A stretch of 64,000 nt of DNA from Rhodobacterales bacterium (GTDB lineage: Bacteria; Pseudomonadota; Alphaproteobacteria; Rhodobacterales; Rhodobacteraceae). The stretch's first letter is position 1. Each line of letters begins with the position of its first letter. The position numbers and the translations under genes are program-made. Below are positions 30,006 through 35,508 of the stretch, piece after piece. Where the stretch lies: positions 1 to 64,000 of the forward strand of contig JANYFE010000071.1 in NCBI GenBank assembly GCA_025362795.1. The letters are read 5' to 3'. Under the pieces are notes generated by a model that made no database searches, was not told where the DNA came from, and saw only the letters and a list, made by a program, of their open reading frames with translations.

Positions 30006-30094
30006 TCGCGGGCATTCCCAGTCTTTGGCCTATAGCCACGGGCGGGGGCTGTCGCATATAGTCCGGCGCAATACAGGTTTGGGACGGAGTTTCC

Positions 30095-30178
30095 ATGTCG
30101 GCCAAAGCACTTCAATCCCTGTCTTTCGTGCTGCTGGTCGGCCTGACCGTTTATGTAGCCTTTGGCGGGGGGCTGTAA
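30095..30178 (+). CDS. 27-residue single-span membrane peptide heading the XpaC-TelA operon
   Basis: Not in the ORF track. ATG at 30095, seven bases after GACGGAG, opens a 27-codon frame: MSAKALQ, a hydrophobic span LSFVLLVGLTVYVAF, then GGGL and TAA. The stop overlaps the ATG of the XpaC-like gene by one base (TAATG), so translation of the two is probably coupled. The frame's good ribosome site, membrane-span composition and coupling argue that it is real. Function is unknown. Confidence 0.6.
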   Translation: MSAKALQSLSFVLLVGLTVYVAFGGGL

Positions 30179-31053
30179 TGGCGCAGCGGTATGGCGGTAA
30201 ATACAGCCCGAACCCGACCGGTGACCCGGTTGATCCGGGGACGCAGCCGATGGTGATGGCCGATACCCCTACTGGGGCAGGGATGAAATCCAACCTTTTG
30301 TTTGCTCTGCCTTTTCTATTCATCTTCAAGGCCTTTGCCAGCCCGGCCTACGGGTTGTTTGTCGGTCTGGGAACGGCGGGGCTGCTGATCCTGGCGGCCT
30401 GGCTGACCCGCGAAGGGATCAAGGCGCAGATGGAATATGACGCGCGCAAGGTTGCCCGGCGTCCCGCCATTCCGCGCAAGCTGTTCGCGGCTTGTCTGAC
30501 CGGCGCCGCGCTGTTGTTGGGCACGATGGGCTGGCAGGGCAATTTCCTTTACCCGTTCCTGTTCGGCATGCTGGGCGCTTTCCTGCACATCGGTGCTTTT
30601 GGGCCGGACCCTTTGAAGGGCAAGGGCGTTGAGGGGGTTGACCAGTTTCAGACCGACCGCGTCGCCCGTGCCGTGGACGAGGGCGAGACTTATCTGGCGG
30701 GCATGAAGGACGCGATCTTGCGGGCGAACGATGGCAAGCTGGAGTTGCGGGTTGACGGTTTTGCCACCCTCGCGCGGGGTCTGTTTCGTACAATCGAGGG
30801 CGACCCCGGCGATCTGACGGCTGCCCGCAAATATCTGTCGATTTATCTGATGGGCGCACGCGACGCGACGGTGAAGTTTGCCGATGTCTATGCCCGCAAC
30901 CGGGACCCCAAGGCGCGGGCTGATTACGAAGCGCTGCTGGGCGATCTGGAGACCAACTTTGCCGCCCGCACCAAGGCGCTGCTGAACGACAGTCACACCG
31001 ATCTGGATGTCGAAATTGCCGTGCTGCGGGACCGGCTGAAGCTGGAAGGCTGA
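30178..31053 (+). CDS. XpaC-like (5-bromo-4-chloroindolyl phosphate hydrolysis) family protein
   Basis: 291 residues. An N-terminal membrane part has hydrophobic pairs near 37-75 and 100-130 (LFALPFLFIFKAFA, GLFVGLGTAGLLILAAWL, LFAACLTGAALLLGTMGW). A soluble helical domain (about 150-291: EGETYLAGMKDAI, LARGLFRTIEGDPGDLTAARKYL) matches XpaC. XpaC and TelA are neighbours in Bacillus too, and the XpaC name reflects an indirect phenotype. It probably forms a membrane complex with TelA. The start ATG overlaps the upstream 27-residue peptide stop. Confidence 0.8.
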   Translation: MAQRYGGKYSPNPTGDPVDPGTQPMVMADTPTGAGMKSNLLFALPFLFIFKAFASPAYGLFVGLGTAGLLILAAWLTREGIKAQMEYDARKVARRPAIPRKLFAACLTGAALLLGTMGWQGNFLYPFLFGMLGAFLHIGAFGPDPLKGKGVEGVDQFQTDRVARAVDEGETYLAGMKDAILRANDGKLELRVDGFATLARGLFRTIEGDPGDLTAARKYLSIYLMGARDATVKFADVYARNRDPKARADYEALLGDLETNFAARTKALLNDSHTDLDVEIAVLRDRLKLEG

Positions 31054-31105
31054 GTGATTTGACCCAAAACCGCCCGGTTTGCGGGCTTGAAGAGTGAGAG
31101 AGACC

Positions 31106-32296
31106 ATGACCGACACCATACGCGATCAGGCCGCCACCGCCCTTTCCGAAGTTGAAAAGGTCACGGCCTCGGTCCTGCCCGAACCCGGCACTGCGATTGT
31201 GCCGCTGGAGGCCGCCTCTGCCCCGCAAGCCGACGCAATCAAGAAGCGCATGGCCGAACTGGACATGACCAACACCCAGTCGATCATCTCTTTCGGGTCA
31301 GGGGCGCAGGCTGAACTGCAGGTGATCAGTCAGGACATGCTGCAAGGCGTCAAGAACAAGGATGTGGGGCCAGCGGGCGACAGTCTGCGCGAGATCGTCT
31401 CGACCATCCGGGGGTTTTCGGGTGAGGAACTGGACGTCAACCGCGAGCGGTCGTGGTGGGAGCGCCTGACCGGAGCGGCCGCCCCTTTGGCGCATTTTAT
31501 GGCGCGGTATGAACAGGTGCAGACCCAGATCGACAAGGTCACCGAAAACCTGATGATGCACGAGACGACACTGCTGAAAGACATCAAATCGCTGGATATT
31601 CTGTACGCCCGCACGCTGACGTTCTATGACGAACTGGGGCTGTATATCGCGGCCGGTCAAGCCAAGCTGAAGGAATTGGACGGCGGCACGATCCCGGCCA
31701 AAGAGGCCGAGGTCAAGGCGGCGGCAGAGCCAGACCAGTTGAAAAAGGCGCAGGAATTGCGCGACATGCGTTCGGCGCGCGACGATCTGGAACGCCGGGT
31801 CTATGACTTGCAGTTGACACGGCAAGTGACGATGCAGTCTTTGCCCTCGATCCGGCTGGTGCAGGAGAATGACAAAAGCCTGGTCGGCAAGATCAACTCG
31901 ACCCTGATGAACACCGTGCCCTTGTGGGAAACTCAACTGGCGCAGGCTGTGACCATTCAGCGGTCGCGCGAGGCGGCAGAGGCCATCAAGGATGCCAACG
32001 ACCTGACCAATGAATTGCTGACCGAAAACGCCAACAATCTGCAGGAAAGCAACAAGATCGTGCGCACCGAGATGGAGCGCGGGGTGTTCGACATTGAATC
32101 GGTCAAGTCCGCCAACGCCACACTGATCGCCACCATTCAGGAAAGCCTGGCCATCGCTGACGAGGGGAAAGCCCGTCGCGCGGCGGCAGAAGTAGAACTG
32201 ACCAAGATGGAAAGCGAATTGAAAGACACCTTGTCCGCAGCCCGTGCCACTAAAACGGGCTTGGGCGAAGACACCGGGGGCGCATTGCAAGGATAA
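31106..32296 (+). CDS. Toxic anion resistance protein, TelA family
   Basis: 396 residues, almost entirely alpha-helical, with TelA landmarks SIISFGSGAQAELQVISQDML, SWWERLTGA, TQIDKVTENLMMHETTLLKDI and MQSLPSIRLVQENDKSLVGKIN. TelA is linked to tellurite and envelope-stress resistance in other bacteria, and the mechanism is unknown. The start MTDTIRDQ at 31106 follows GAGAGAGACC; 31094 is a weaker alternative. The stop TAA shares an A with the ATG of the DUF2927 gene (TAATG). Confidence 0.9.
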   Translation: MTDTIRDQAATALSEVEKVTASVLPEPGTAIVPLEAASAPQADAIKKRMAELDMTNTQSIISFGSGAQAELQVISQDMLQGVKNKDVGPAGDSLREIVSTIRGFSGEELDVNRERSWWERLTGAAAPLAHFMARYEQVQTQIDKVTENLMMHETTLLKDIKSLDILYARTLTFYDELGLYIAAGQAKLKELDGGTIPAKEAEVKAAAEPDQLKKAQELRDMRSARDDLERRVYDLQLTRQVTMQSLPSIRLVQENDKSLVGKINSTLMNTVPLWETQLAQAVTIQRSREAAEAIKDANDLTNELLTENANNLQESNKIVRTEMERGVFDIESVKSANATLIATIQESLAIADEGKARRAAAEVELTKMESELKDTLSAARATKTGLGEDTGGALQG

Positions 32297-33255
32297 TGCC
32301 TGTAGGGCTGTTTTGCGCCAGACTGATCTGCCTGACCGCCCTGATCATCGGGGTGGCCGGGCTTTCCGCATGCGTAACGGCCCCGGTGCCGCCGCCTGCG
32401 GCCGTGCCGATAACGGCTGCGCCGCCGGTTGTGTCACCGCCGCCGGAAACTGCGGCCAGCGCCGCAATTCGGGCCTATTATGCGCAGGTGCAAACGTCGC
32501 TGCTGTCCCAAGGCCTGTTGCGCACCGATATGGGCGGCGCGGATGCGCCCTTTACCGACCGCAACCTGACCGACAATTTCCTGAAAATCGCGCTGTATGA
32601 AGAATATGCGAATGGTCAGATCGGCACGGTTCGCGGGGTCAACCCGATCCGGTTGCTGCGCTGGAACCAGCCCGTGCGGGTTGCGCTTATCTTTGGCGCA
32701 TCGGTACCGCAGGACAAACGTGCCACCGACACGTTGCGGGTCTCTTCGTTTCTGGCGCGGTTGGCGGGCGTGACCGGACACGCGATCGCGCTGAACGACC
32801 GGAACCCGAATTTCTGGATACACATCGCCTCGGTGGACGAGAGGGCGGCGCTGGGCCCGGTGCTGGCGTCCGAATTGAACGAGTTGACGCCGGGCCAGAT
32901 CGCCAGTGTGACCGCAATGGACCGCGACACCTATTGTCAGGTGCTGACCCAGTCCAACCCGCTGACGTCGGCCTATGTGGCCGCGGTTGCCGTGATCCCG
33001 TCAGAACATCCCGACCTGTTGCGGCTGTCCTGCATCCACGAAGAACTGGCCCAGGCATTGGGCCTGCCCAATGACAGCAACGCCGCCCGCCCTTCGATCT
33101 TTAACGATGACGAGGAATATGCGCTGCTGACCCGGCAGGACGAGTTGATGTTGCGCATTCTTTATAACCCGGCGCTATACCCCGGCATGACCGAAGCCGA
33201 GGCGCGACCGATCGTCGAAACGCTTGCAAGCCGTCTGATGGGCGGCGAGAGTTGA
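32296..33255 (+). CDS. DUF2927 lipoprotein
   Basis: 319 residues. The signal sequence with lipobox LSAC lies near residue 26, followed by a Pro/Ala linker. The DUF2927 domain follows (about 85-290), with RWNQPVRVALIFGASV, NFWIHIASVDERAALGP and the cysteine pair in TYCQVL and SCIHEELAQALGLPNDS. The motif CIHEELAQALGL resembles zinc-protease helices (HExxxxxG region), so a degenerate or real peptidase is conceivable. It is the third protein of the XpaC-TelA operon, placed outside the inner membrane. Confidence 0.8.
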   Translation: MPVGLFCARLICLTALIIGVAGLSACVTAPVPPPAAVPITAAPPVVSPPPETAASAAIRAYYAQVQTSLLSQGLLRTDMGGADAPFTDRNLTDNFLKIALYEEYANGQIGTVRGVNPIRLLRWNQPVRVALIFGASVPQDKRATDTLRVSSFLARLAGVTGHAIALNDRNPNFWIHIASVDERAALGPVLASELNELTPGQIASVTAMDRDTYCQVLTQSNPLTSAYVAAVAVIPSEHPDLLRLSCIHEELAQALGLPNDSNAARPSIFNDDEEYALLTRQDELMLRILYNPALYPGMTEAEARPIVETLASRLMGGES

Positions 33256-33282
33256 CCGCGCTGACGCGGCAAAGGAGTAAAT

Positions 33283-34383
33283 ATGGTATTCGGGTTTCTT
33301 AAAGGCGAATTCATTGACGTCATCTCTTGGCTGGATGACACGCGCGACACGATGGTCTGGCGGTTTGAACGGCGCGACAACGCCATCAAATACGGTGCCA
33401 AGCTGACCGTGCGCGAAGGGCAGGCGGCGGTTTTCATCAACGAAGGGCAGCTGGCGGATGTGTTCACGCCGGGGCTGTACGAGTTGCAGACCAACAACAT
33501 GCCGATCATGACCACGTTGCAGCACTGGGACCACGGGTTCCAGTCGCCGTTCAAATGCGAGATTTACTTCGTCAACACCACGCGGTTCAACGATCTGAAA
33601 TGGGGCACGCAGAACCCGATCATGTGCCGCGACCCGGAATTCGGGCCGGTGCGGATCAGGGCCTTCGGCAATTACTCGATGCGGGTTTCGGACCCGGGCG
33701 TATTTATGAAGGAAGTCGTCGGCACGGATGGCGAGTTCACGTCGGACGAGATCTCGAACCAGATCCGCAACGTGATTTTGCAGCAGATGAGCCAGGTTCT
33801 GGCAAAGTCGGGCATCCCTGTGCTGGATATGGCGGCCAATACGATGGATCTGGCCAAGCTGGTGTCGACCGCGATTGCGCCGGCGATTGCGGCTTATGGG
33901 TTGGTGCTGCCAGAGTTTTACATCGAAAATGTCAGCCTGCCGGAAGAAGTGGAAAAGGTGCTGGACAAGCGCACGTCCATGGGAATTGCCGGCGATCTGA
34001 ACAAGTACATGCAGTTCAATGCGGCTGAAGGCATGGCCCAGCCGGGGTCGGCGATGGGGGCCACGATGGGGGCTGCGATGGGGGCCGGCATGGGCTTTGG
34101 CATGGGGCAGCAGCAGGCGGGGCCTTGGGGTGCGGCGCCTGCTGCTGCAGCACCGCCGCCACCGCCGCCACCCGCGAGCCGGGCATGGCATGTCGTCGAG
34201 AATGGCGCGACCAAGGGGCCGTTTTCAGAGGCCGAGATTGCCGCGATGGTGTCTTCGGGCGGGTTGACCAAAGCGGCGCAGGTCTGGACCGCCGGGCAGG
34301 AGGGCTGGAAAGCCGCTGGCGATACCGATTTGTCCCGGTTGTTTTCAATGGTGCCACCTCCGCCGCCACCGCCTGGCCAGTAG
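33283..34383 (+). CDS. SPFH/Band-7 domain protein with C-terminal GYF-type domain
   Basis: 366 residues in three parts. Residues 1-245 are the SPFH (YdjI-like) domain: LKGEFIDVISWLDDTRDTMVWRFE, EGQAAVFINEGQLADVF, NVILQQMSQVLAKSGIPVLDMA. Residues about 248-305 are a low-complexity Gly/Met/Ala then poly-Pro linker. Residues about 306-360 are a GYF_2-like domain, WHVVENGATKGPFSEAEIAAMV. SPFH proteins form membrane-associated rings, and GYF domains bind proline-rich peptides. GGAG is seven bases before the ATG. The zinc-ribbon gene follows after three bases. Confidence 0.85.
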   Translation: MVFGFLKGEFIDVISWLDDTRDTMVWRFERRDNAIKYGAKLTVREGQAAVFINEGQLADVFTPGLYELQTNNMPIMTTLQHWDHGFQSPFKCEIYFVNTTRFNDLKWGTQNPIMCRDPEFGPVRIRAFGNYSMRVSDPGVFMKEVVGTDGEFTSDEISNQIRNVILQQMSQVLAKSGIPVLDMAANTMDLAKLVSTAIAPAIAAYGLVLPEFYIENVSLPEEVEKVLDKRTSMGIAGDLNKYMQFNAAEGMAQPGSAMGATMGAAMGAGMGFGMGQQQAGPWGAAPAAAAPPPPPPPASRAWHVVENGATKGPFSEAEIAAMVSSGGLTKAAQVWTAGQEGWKAAGDTDLSRLFSMVPPPPPPPGQ

Positions 34384-34386
34384 GCC

Positions 34387-35508
34387 ATGGCACCGGTCGC
34401 TGAGGCGCATCTTTATCCATGCGAGCAATGCGGGGCAGAGCTGCGCTTTGCCCCCGGCCAGACCGTCCTGAAATGTGACCACTGCGGGCATGAGCAGAAG
34501 ATAGCCGGTGCCGGCAGCCAAGATGCGACCTTTGCCGAGCATGATCTGGGCAAGGGTCTCAAAGACGACCTGCCCGACAGCGCCAGCGAGGATGTCCGGT
34601 CGACACATTGCCCGAATTGCGGCGCGGTGGTGGAGTTTCAGGGTGCAAACCACGCCACCGAATGCCCATTCTGCGCGACGCCGGTTGTGGTGGACACGGG
34701 TAGCCATCGGCGGATCAAACCGCAGGCCCTGATTCCGTTCCAGTTGGACGAGCCGACGGCGCGCCGGGCTTTGATTGCCTGGCTGGGGTCACTGTGGTTC
34801 GCGCCCAACAGGTTGCTGGAGTTCACCAGAGCCGGGCGGGCGATGAACGGGGTTTACGTGCCCTACTGGACCTTTGATGCCACCACCCACAGCCGCTATC
34901 GCGGGGCCAAAGGGGTGCATTATTACGAGACGCGCACCGTGACGGTGAATGTGAACGGGCGTTCGGAACAGCGTCAGGAGCAGGTGCAGAAGACCCAGTG
35001 GTATCCGGCGTCAGGGGCGGTCGCGCGCCAGTTTGATGATGTGCTGGTGATCGCCTCGACCAGCCTGCCCGCAAAGCTGGGCGACGGGCTGGAGCCCTGG
35101 GATATGGCGGCGCTGCAAGGCTACAGCCCGGACTATCTGGCGGGCTTTCAGGCGGAAGGCTATGTCGTGGCGCTGGCGGATGGCCATCAGACCGGCCGGG
35201 CCAAGATGGCGGCGGTGATCTATCAGGACGTGCGCCAAGCCATTGGTGGCGACGAGCAGCGGATCGACAATATCGACAGCGACTATGCCGCCGAAACCTT
35301 CAAGCATGTTCTGTTGCCGGTCTGGATGGCCGCCTACAAATACGGCAGCAAAAGCTATCGCTTTCTGGTCAATGGCCAGACAGGTGAAGTGCAGGGCGAG
35401 CGGCCTTGGTCGGCGTGGAAGATCGCCTTTGCGGTGCTGGGTGTTCTGATTATGGTGGGGGCGGCGAGCTATGCCTATTACCTGTATGACCCGTCCCAAT
35501 TCCGGTGA
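34387..35508 (+). CDS. Zinc-ribbon membrane-anchored protein (TFIIB-type zinc ribbon)
   Basis: 373 residues. Two zinc ribbons lie near the N-terminus: [10 protein letters not shown] with CDHCGHEQ (about 13-38), and [22 protein letters not shown] (about 75-97). A large domain follows with [20 protein letters not shown], and one C-terminal helix (about 345-367, [19 protein letters not shown]) anchors it in the membrane. Homologues are often mislabelled primosomal protein N'. No helicase motifs are present here. It is the last gene of the XpaC-TelA-SPFH set and overlaps the purC upstream frame. Confidence 0.8.

Follow-up and report, generated by a model that had tools for sequence, protein, structure and literature searches.

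The window analysed here is a 64,000-nucleotide stretch of Rhodobacterales bacterium DNA (family Rhodobacteraceae; assembly GCA_025362795.1, contig JANYFE010000071.1, positions 1 to 64,000), and its positions 30095-35508 carry six open reading frames (ORFs) arranged head to tail on the + strand. These encode a 27-residue membrane peptide, XpaC, TelA, a DUF2927 lipoprotein, an SPFH protein and a zinc-ribbon protein (ZnR). An earlier note on this DNA, made from the sequence alone, had described a tightly packed six-gene operon, and all six ORFs were found at that place and on that strand. The one-base TAATG overlaps that it reported for several junctions are real and occur at exactly two of them, peptide/XpaC and TelA/DUF2927; the remaining gaps measure 52 (XpaC/TelA), 27 (DUF2927/SPFH) and 3 nucleotides (SPFH/ZnR).

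The peptide (MSAKALQSLSFVLLVGLTVYVAFGGGL; 30095..30178) has a single transmembrane segment, and its stop codon overlaps the xpaC start codon. XpaC (30178..31053; PF10112, 70.8 bits against a curated cut-off of 29.8) combines an N-terminal transmembrane region, in which three segments exceed the hydropathy threshold, with a cytosolic domain. TelA (31106..32296; PF05816, 342.6 bits, curated cut-off 30) is predicted to be soluble, as no transmembrane segment was found by hydropathy. The ATG at 31106 is preferred as its start, and an in-frame GTG at 31094 was set aside because the ATG, with GAGAGA directly upstream, fits better. The DUF2927 protein (32296..33255; PF11150, 194 bits) carries the lipobox LSAC with Cys26. 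The SPFH protein (33283..34383) consists of a PF13421 domain (342.7 bits, cut-off 24), a Gly/Met-rich linker, poly-Pro, a GYF_2 domain (PF14237, residues 302-348, 53.9 bits) and a C-terminal PPPPPPPG tail. ZnR (34387..35508) gave weak Pfam zinc-ribbon matches and nothing else; its conserved cysteines, structural model and hydropathy indicate two zinc ribbons, a long beta-strand domain and a C-terminal transmembrane segment at residues 346-364. The peptide had no Pfam match, and NCBIfam and PADLOC scans of the six proteins added nothing convincing (best PADLOC match 14.8 bits).

Gene-neighbourhood conservation, which had been proposed as a check, was surveyed across 81 genomes from 80 genera of the Rhodobacteraceae. 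TelA and XpaC are each present in 73 genomes, SPFH in 74 and DUF2927 in 77. TelA and XpaC are missing from an identical set of eight genomes, seven of which also lack SPFH, the eighth having a 28-bit unrelated match; if the absences were independent, two such sets would coincide with a chance of 3e-11, a figure that is not corrected for kinship of the genomes. The order XpaC-TelA-DUF2927-SPFH-ZnR is kept in 55 of 61 loci. The six exceptions comprise one locus at a contig end, three in which the two halves lie apart (genomes G004, G018 and G062) and two rearranged loci, one with no DUF2927 at the locus and one with XpaC relocated. All six genes occur in 64 of 80 named loci, including those of Rhodobacter capsulatus and Ruegeria atlantica, and most of the rest are cut by contig ends. 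These results speak against a chance arrangement and support the view that the six genes form one co-conserved, co-inherited unit reaching, as the earlier note had it, from the cytosol through the inner membrane to the periplasm. On the 5′ side the neighbours in most relatives are tadA (reverse strand) and rluB. On the 3′ side purC follows the operon in the window and two fetched loci only; as it so rarely follows, the unit was bounded as peptide to ZnR. In about one-sixth of loci a cytochrome b561-type gene is inserted between SPFH and ZnR (ten loci, one with two copies, and possibly an eleventh), and PF01292 was matched by five of six of these proteins tested, the L039 protein being the exception. 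Such a gene may tie the module to redox state.

The smallest gene of the set is also closely bound to its neighbour. A profile built from 22 peptides was run on 27,455 ORFs of 61 family loci, and a homologue was recovered directly 5′ of xpaC in 56 of them, mostly scoring 20-56 bits; away from that place none of those ORFs scored above about 6 bits. The distance from peptide stop to xpaC start is -4 to +4 nucleotides in 56/56 loci, and a homologue adjoins xpaC in all 64 complete named loci. The consensus is approximately MSxTGLQKLAYVLLxxLxxYVxxGGL. When aligned pairs sharing at least 65% identity were compared, the first, second and third codon positions had diverged by 0.257, 0.135 and 0.523, a pattern that, as judged from these alignments, is that of a protein under selection. 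In genome G023, xpaC and telA are separated by about 200 kb and the peptide gene stays with xpaC; two Paracoccus loci and one Tabrizicola locus retain TelA-DUF2927-SPFH-ZnR but have neither xpaC nor the peptide in the approximately 3 kb upstream. No such peptide was found beside four diverged XpaC paralogues. From sequence comparison, then, the coupled mini-peptide that had been proposed is a real gene tied to xpaC. In other alphaproteobacterial families, too, short transmembrane ORFs precede xpaC; they are candidate counterparts by likeness in size, transmembrane segment and place. In Paracoccus ferrooxidans, the one annotated relative considered, the TelA, DUF2927, SPFH and zinc-ribbon genes are each named singly. 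KdpF and CydX are small accessory subunits of membrane proteins, and the peptide resembles subunits of this type in having about 27-40 residues, one transmembrane segment and a gene that adjoins or overlaps that of a partner membrane protein, here XpaC; the likeness is one of size, membrane segment and gene place.

Upstream of the peptide, a sigma-70-like promoter candidate (TAGCCA-18-TATAGT, + strand, 30033..30062) is a weak match (9/12) that lies about 32 nucleotides before the ATG. In many relatives (e.g., L047 and L259) the promoter place is filled by a TTCCCCCTAGC-N18-CCTA element. Across 115 relatives the commonest arrangement 5′ of the peptide was TTCCCCCTAG-N18-CCTA, and 47 of the 115 scored above the 99% level of random windows. 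Of 15 genomes searched, 7 contain the exact TTCCCCCTAGC-N18-CCTA pattern, each as a single copy that lies about 1.2 kb 5′ of telA, that is, at the operon start. The window promoter gave no confident match to this element, its version being degenerate; for the copy at 30033-30062 a link to the conserved promoter-like element is therefore no more than suggestive.

For the DUF2927 protein, an AlphaFold model (pLDDT 92.8) was searched against known folds, and the top 50 PDB matches were mostly metzincins (matrix metalloproteinases (MMPs), snapalysin and archaemetzincin), with probabilities up to 0.99, target TM of about 0.6 and a best E of 0.014. Among predicted models, matches to a phage Zn-protease (E 4e-5) and a viral M10 protein (E 3e-4) were obtained. 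A metzincin-like fold is therefore predicted, in which the active-site helix and Gly register correspond to those of the M10 MMPs, snapalysin and archaemetzincin. In the register of the metzincin HExxHxxGxxH motif the protein reads E249-E250-x-x-Q253-x-x-G256-x-x-N259-D260, so that all three zinc-binding histidines are replaced (EExxQxxGxxxD) and no HExxHxxGxxH/D motif is present. Across 50 relatives E249, E250 and G256 are invariant and Q253, N259 and D260 are kept in 49. Cys214 and Cys246 are likewise invariant and likely form a disulfide. The hhalign comparison with M10 was not significant (P 0.16-0.37) and gave the same register, with E249 aligned to His and E250 to Glu; the metzincin link thus draws on predicted fold and motif register. 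No useful sequence-level PDB relatives were found for DUF2927, ZnR, TelA or SPFH, and no DUF2927 papers were found in the literature searched. Diverged DUF2927 paralogues keep EE, Q, G and D, not His248, and those inspected contained no HExxH. A second DUF2927 protein, in open frames of about 455-650 residues, occurs elsewhere in most family genomes (in the window's own genome at contig C45, 17987-18589) and shares the EExxQxxGxxxD motif. Could the protein, instead of being a pseudoenzyme, be a working hydrolase that uses the unusual ligand set E/Q/N/D? The invariance of E250, which is equivalent to the metzincin general-base Glu, and the retention of E249, Q253, G256 and D260 in diverged paralogues suggest a site that has been kept, but with every zinc-binding His position replaced and an M10 profile alignment that is not significant, we regard catalysis as doubtful.

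The SPFH protein carries both its SPFH and GYF_2 domains in 47/47 relatives, with poly-Pro conserved both N-terminal to GYF and at the C-terminal end; none of these has the C-terminal zinc ribbon described for B. subtilis YdjI, GYF_2 standing in its place. GYF domains bind proline-rich, PPPPG-like peptides, which makes self-assembly of the SPFH protein plausible. By eye, Vibrio, Tsukamurella and others also have SPFH proteins with GYF-like ends flanked by poly-Pro, so the GYF/poly-Pro fusion, put forward earlier as a distinctive part of the operon, is widespread and was ruled out as special to it. Other SPFH proteins end, again by eye, in a zinc ribbon or an HTH-like domain; the HTH-like end was noted at four loci, in one of which the product is annotated as 'SPFH and helix-turn-helix domain-containing protein'. 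In ZnR the eight Cys ligands (12/15/30/33 and 75/78/93/96) are all invariant across 51 relatives. In its model (pLDDT 90.5) the two ribbons are accompanied by very long beta strands, with a helix at the C-terminus; a fold search with it returned no significant PDB match.

Among 192 alphaproteobacterial genomes, TelA was found in 19 (17 over the cut-off) and ZnR in 10. Outside the family, a contiguous XpaC-TelA-SPFH-ZnR core that lacks DUF2927 was found at four loci in three further alphaproteobacterial families. The combination singled out by the earlier note is thus upheld as one conserved unit, but its core is not confined to the form with DUF2927. That XpaC-TelA and SPFH genes are also known separately is borne out, in other phyla too: ZnR-SPFH stands as a lone pair in other Pseudomonadota, Vibrio and Tsukamurella, and XpaC-TelA in Bacillus, Listeria and Cytobacillus. 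A TPM-domain (YdjH-type) partner joins either pair, as SPFH-ZnR-TPM in Enterococcus, where the ZnR relative was matched at E=4e-24, and as XpaC-TelA-TPM in Vescimonas. The operon is thus a union of two pairs, each of which is also found alone and which share TPM as a partner elsewhere. The Enterococcus SPFH-ZnR-TPM genes adjoin dnaX-recR-tmk-cyclic-di-AMP receptor genes, a place similar to that of B. subtilis xpaC-yaaN (tmk-darA).

Both halves have published links to envelope stress. The B. subtilis sigma-W regulon includes the xpaC-yaaN and pspA-ydjG-ydjH-ydjI operons (PMC3498285), and a transcriptome table for cells made to overproduce lipoproteins, membrane proteins or secreted proteins lists ydjG/H/I together with yaaN (PMC3514339). 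B. subtilis PspA is brought to the membrane by YdjI with YdjG/H (PMC8581546). In Listeria, disruption of telA increased nisin susceptibility 4-fold and tellurite susceptibility 2-fold (Collins 2010, as quoted in PMC12791056). Like pspA-ydjGHI, the window locus sets a PF13421 SPFH gene beside one for a double-zinc-ribbon transmembrane protein, and a counterpart to the soluble partner that is brought to the membrane platform is proposed below. It differs in that no PspA (PF04012) or TPM (YdjH) match was found among the six proteins, in an SPFH protein that ends in GYF and not in a zinc ribbon, and in the addition of XpaC-TelA, the microprotein and DUF2927. From the XpaC-TelA pair (B. subtilis xpaC-yaaN; Listeria lmo1966-1967), whose families, order and adjacency are preserved, it differs in being joined to SPFH-ZnR and in the 27-residue peptide that overlaps xpaC.

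With moderate confidence, we favour a single-transcript membrane-surveillance and repair module that joins XpaC-TelA with the SPFH and zinc-ribbon/transmembrane pair, and hence two envelope-stress modules found separately in many other bacteria. The double zinc-ribbon, tail-anchored, YdjG-like protein and XpaC would form an inner-membrane platform on which the cytosolic SPFH protein would assemble as an oligomer, its GYF domains possibly reading the conserved poly-Pro tracts of adjacent subunits. The SPFH scaffold would then draw the soluble TelA to membrane that is damaged or under stress, a task that falls to PspA in B. subtilis. We infer this placing of XpaC-TelA on the SPFH-ZnR platform from the recruitment of PspA by YdjI, the shared sigma-W regulon, the overproduction table, the Listeria telA phenotype and the family counts (PspA over the cut-off in 17 of the 81 genomes versus TelA in 73). 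The peptide would be a translationally coupled, KdpF- or CydX-like accessory subunit of XpaC, and the lipoprotein a catalytically altered metzincin acting as a periplasmic binding or sensor module. Under such a mechanism the proteins would form a complex, and a stress phenotype would be expected of the operon.

Several points weigh against this. No published interaction, transcript or phenotype data were found for the operon. The window's own genome has a PspA-family gene on another contig (C73, 24583-25251; 66 bits), with none of the module genes within about 8 kb, so TelA is not the sole candidate for the PspA role. The shared absences were counted per genome, not as independent co-loss events on a tree. 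Three genomes without TelA and XpaC still have operon-type DUF2927, and the core found in other families does not include it; DUF2927 is therefore not an obligatory member. Finally, R. sphaeroides telA, compared by name, is among the listed tellurite determinants (O'Gara 1997, cited in PMC6955997), which would also be in keeping with a narrower oxyanion role.

A stricter version of the module, a self-contained repair machine in which TelA replaces PspA, XpaC needs the 27-residue peptide as an obligate subunit and the EExxQxxGxxxD metzincin detects a periplasmic signal of damage or processes it, is rather unlikely. It is also rather unlikely that peptide-XpaC-TelA and SPFH-ZnR are functionally independent, with no more than a common promoter linking them in this family. 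Each pair does occur alone in other phyla and the halves are separated in three family genomes, but both are absent together from the same genomes, at least four alphaproteobacterial families have them side by side, and the pairs share the TPM partner and are co-regulated in B. subtilis. Less probable still is a toxic-oxyanion (tellurite) resistance operon whose membrane proteins serve export or exclusion. The family names, the R. sphaeroides listing and the tellurite phenotype of the Listeria mutant speak for it; however, near-universal presence (73/81) points to a general role more readily than to a metal niche, Pfam revealed no transporter or reductase among the six genes, the Listeria effect was greater for nisin, and the homologues in B. 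subtilis belong to the sigma-W envelope-stress regulon. An anti-phage defence system, brought to mind by the phage challenge suggested earlier and by the first naming of Psp-type proteins for phage stress, is very improbable and was rejected, as the PADLOC scan was negative and the core-genome distribution and stable tadA-rluB synteny are unlike those of defence islands.

The most surprising parts of the operon are the conserved microprotein tied to XpaC, overlooked until now and missing from the name that annotation gives the operon, and the DUF2927 protein, for which the predicted metzincin-like fold with its EExxQxxGxxxD site offers a structural hypothesis. TelA and XpaC belong to widespread families; their union in one operon with SPFH and zinc-ribbon partners, carried by the genetically tractable genus Rhodobacter, makes function directly testable. 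In Bacillus the two membrane-stress gene groups are separate; in Rhodobacter-type bacteria they stand joined.

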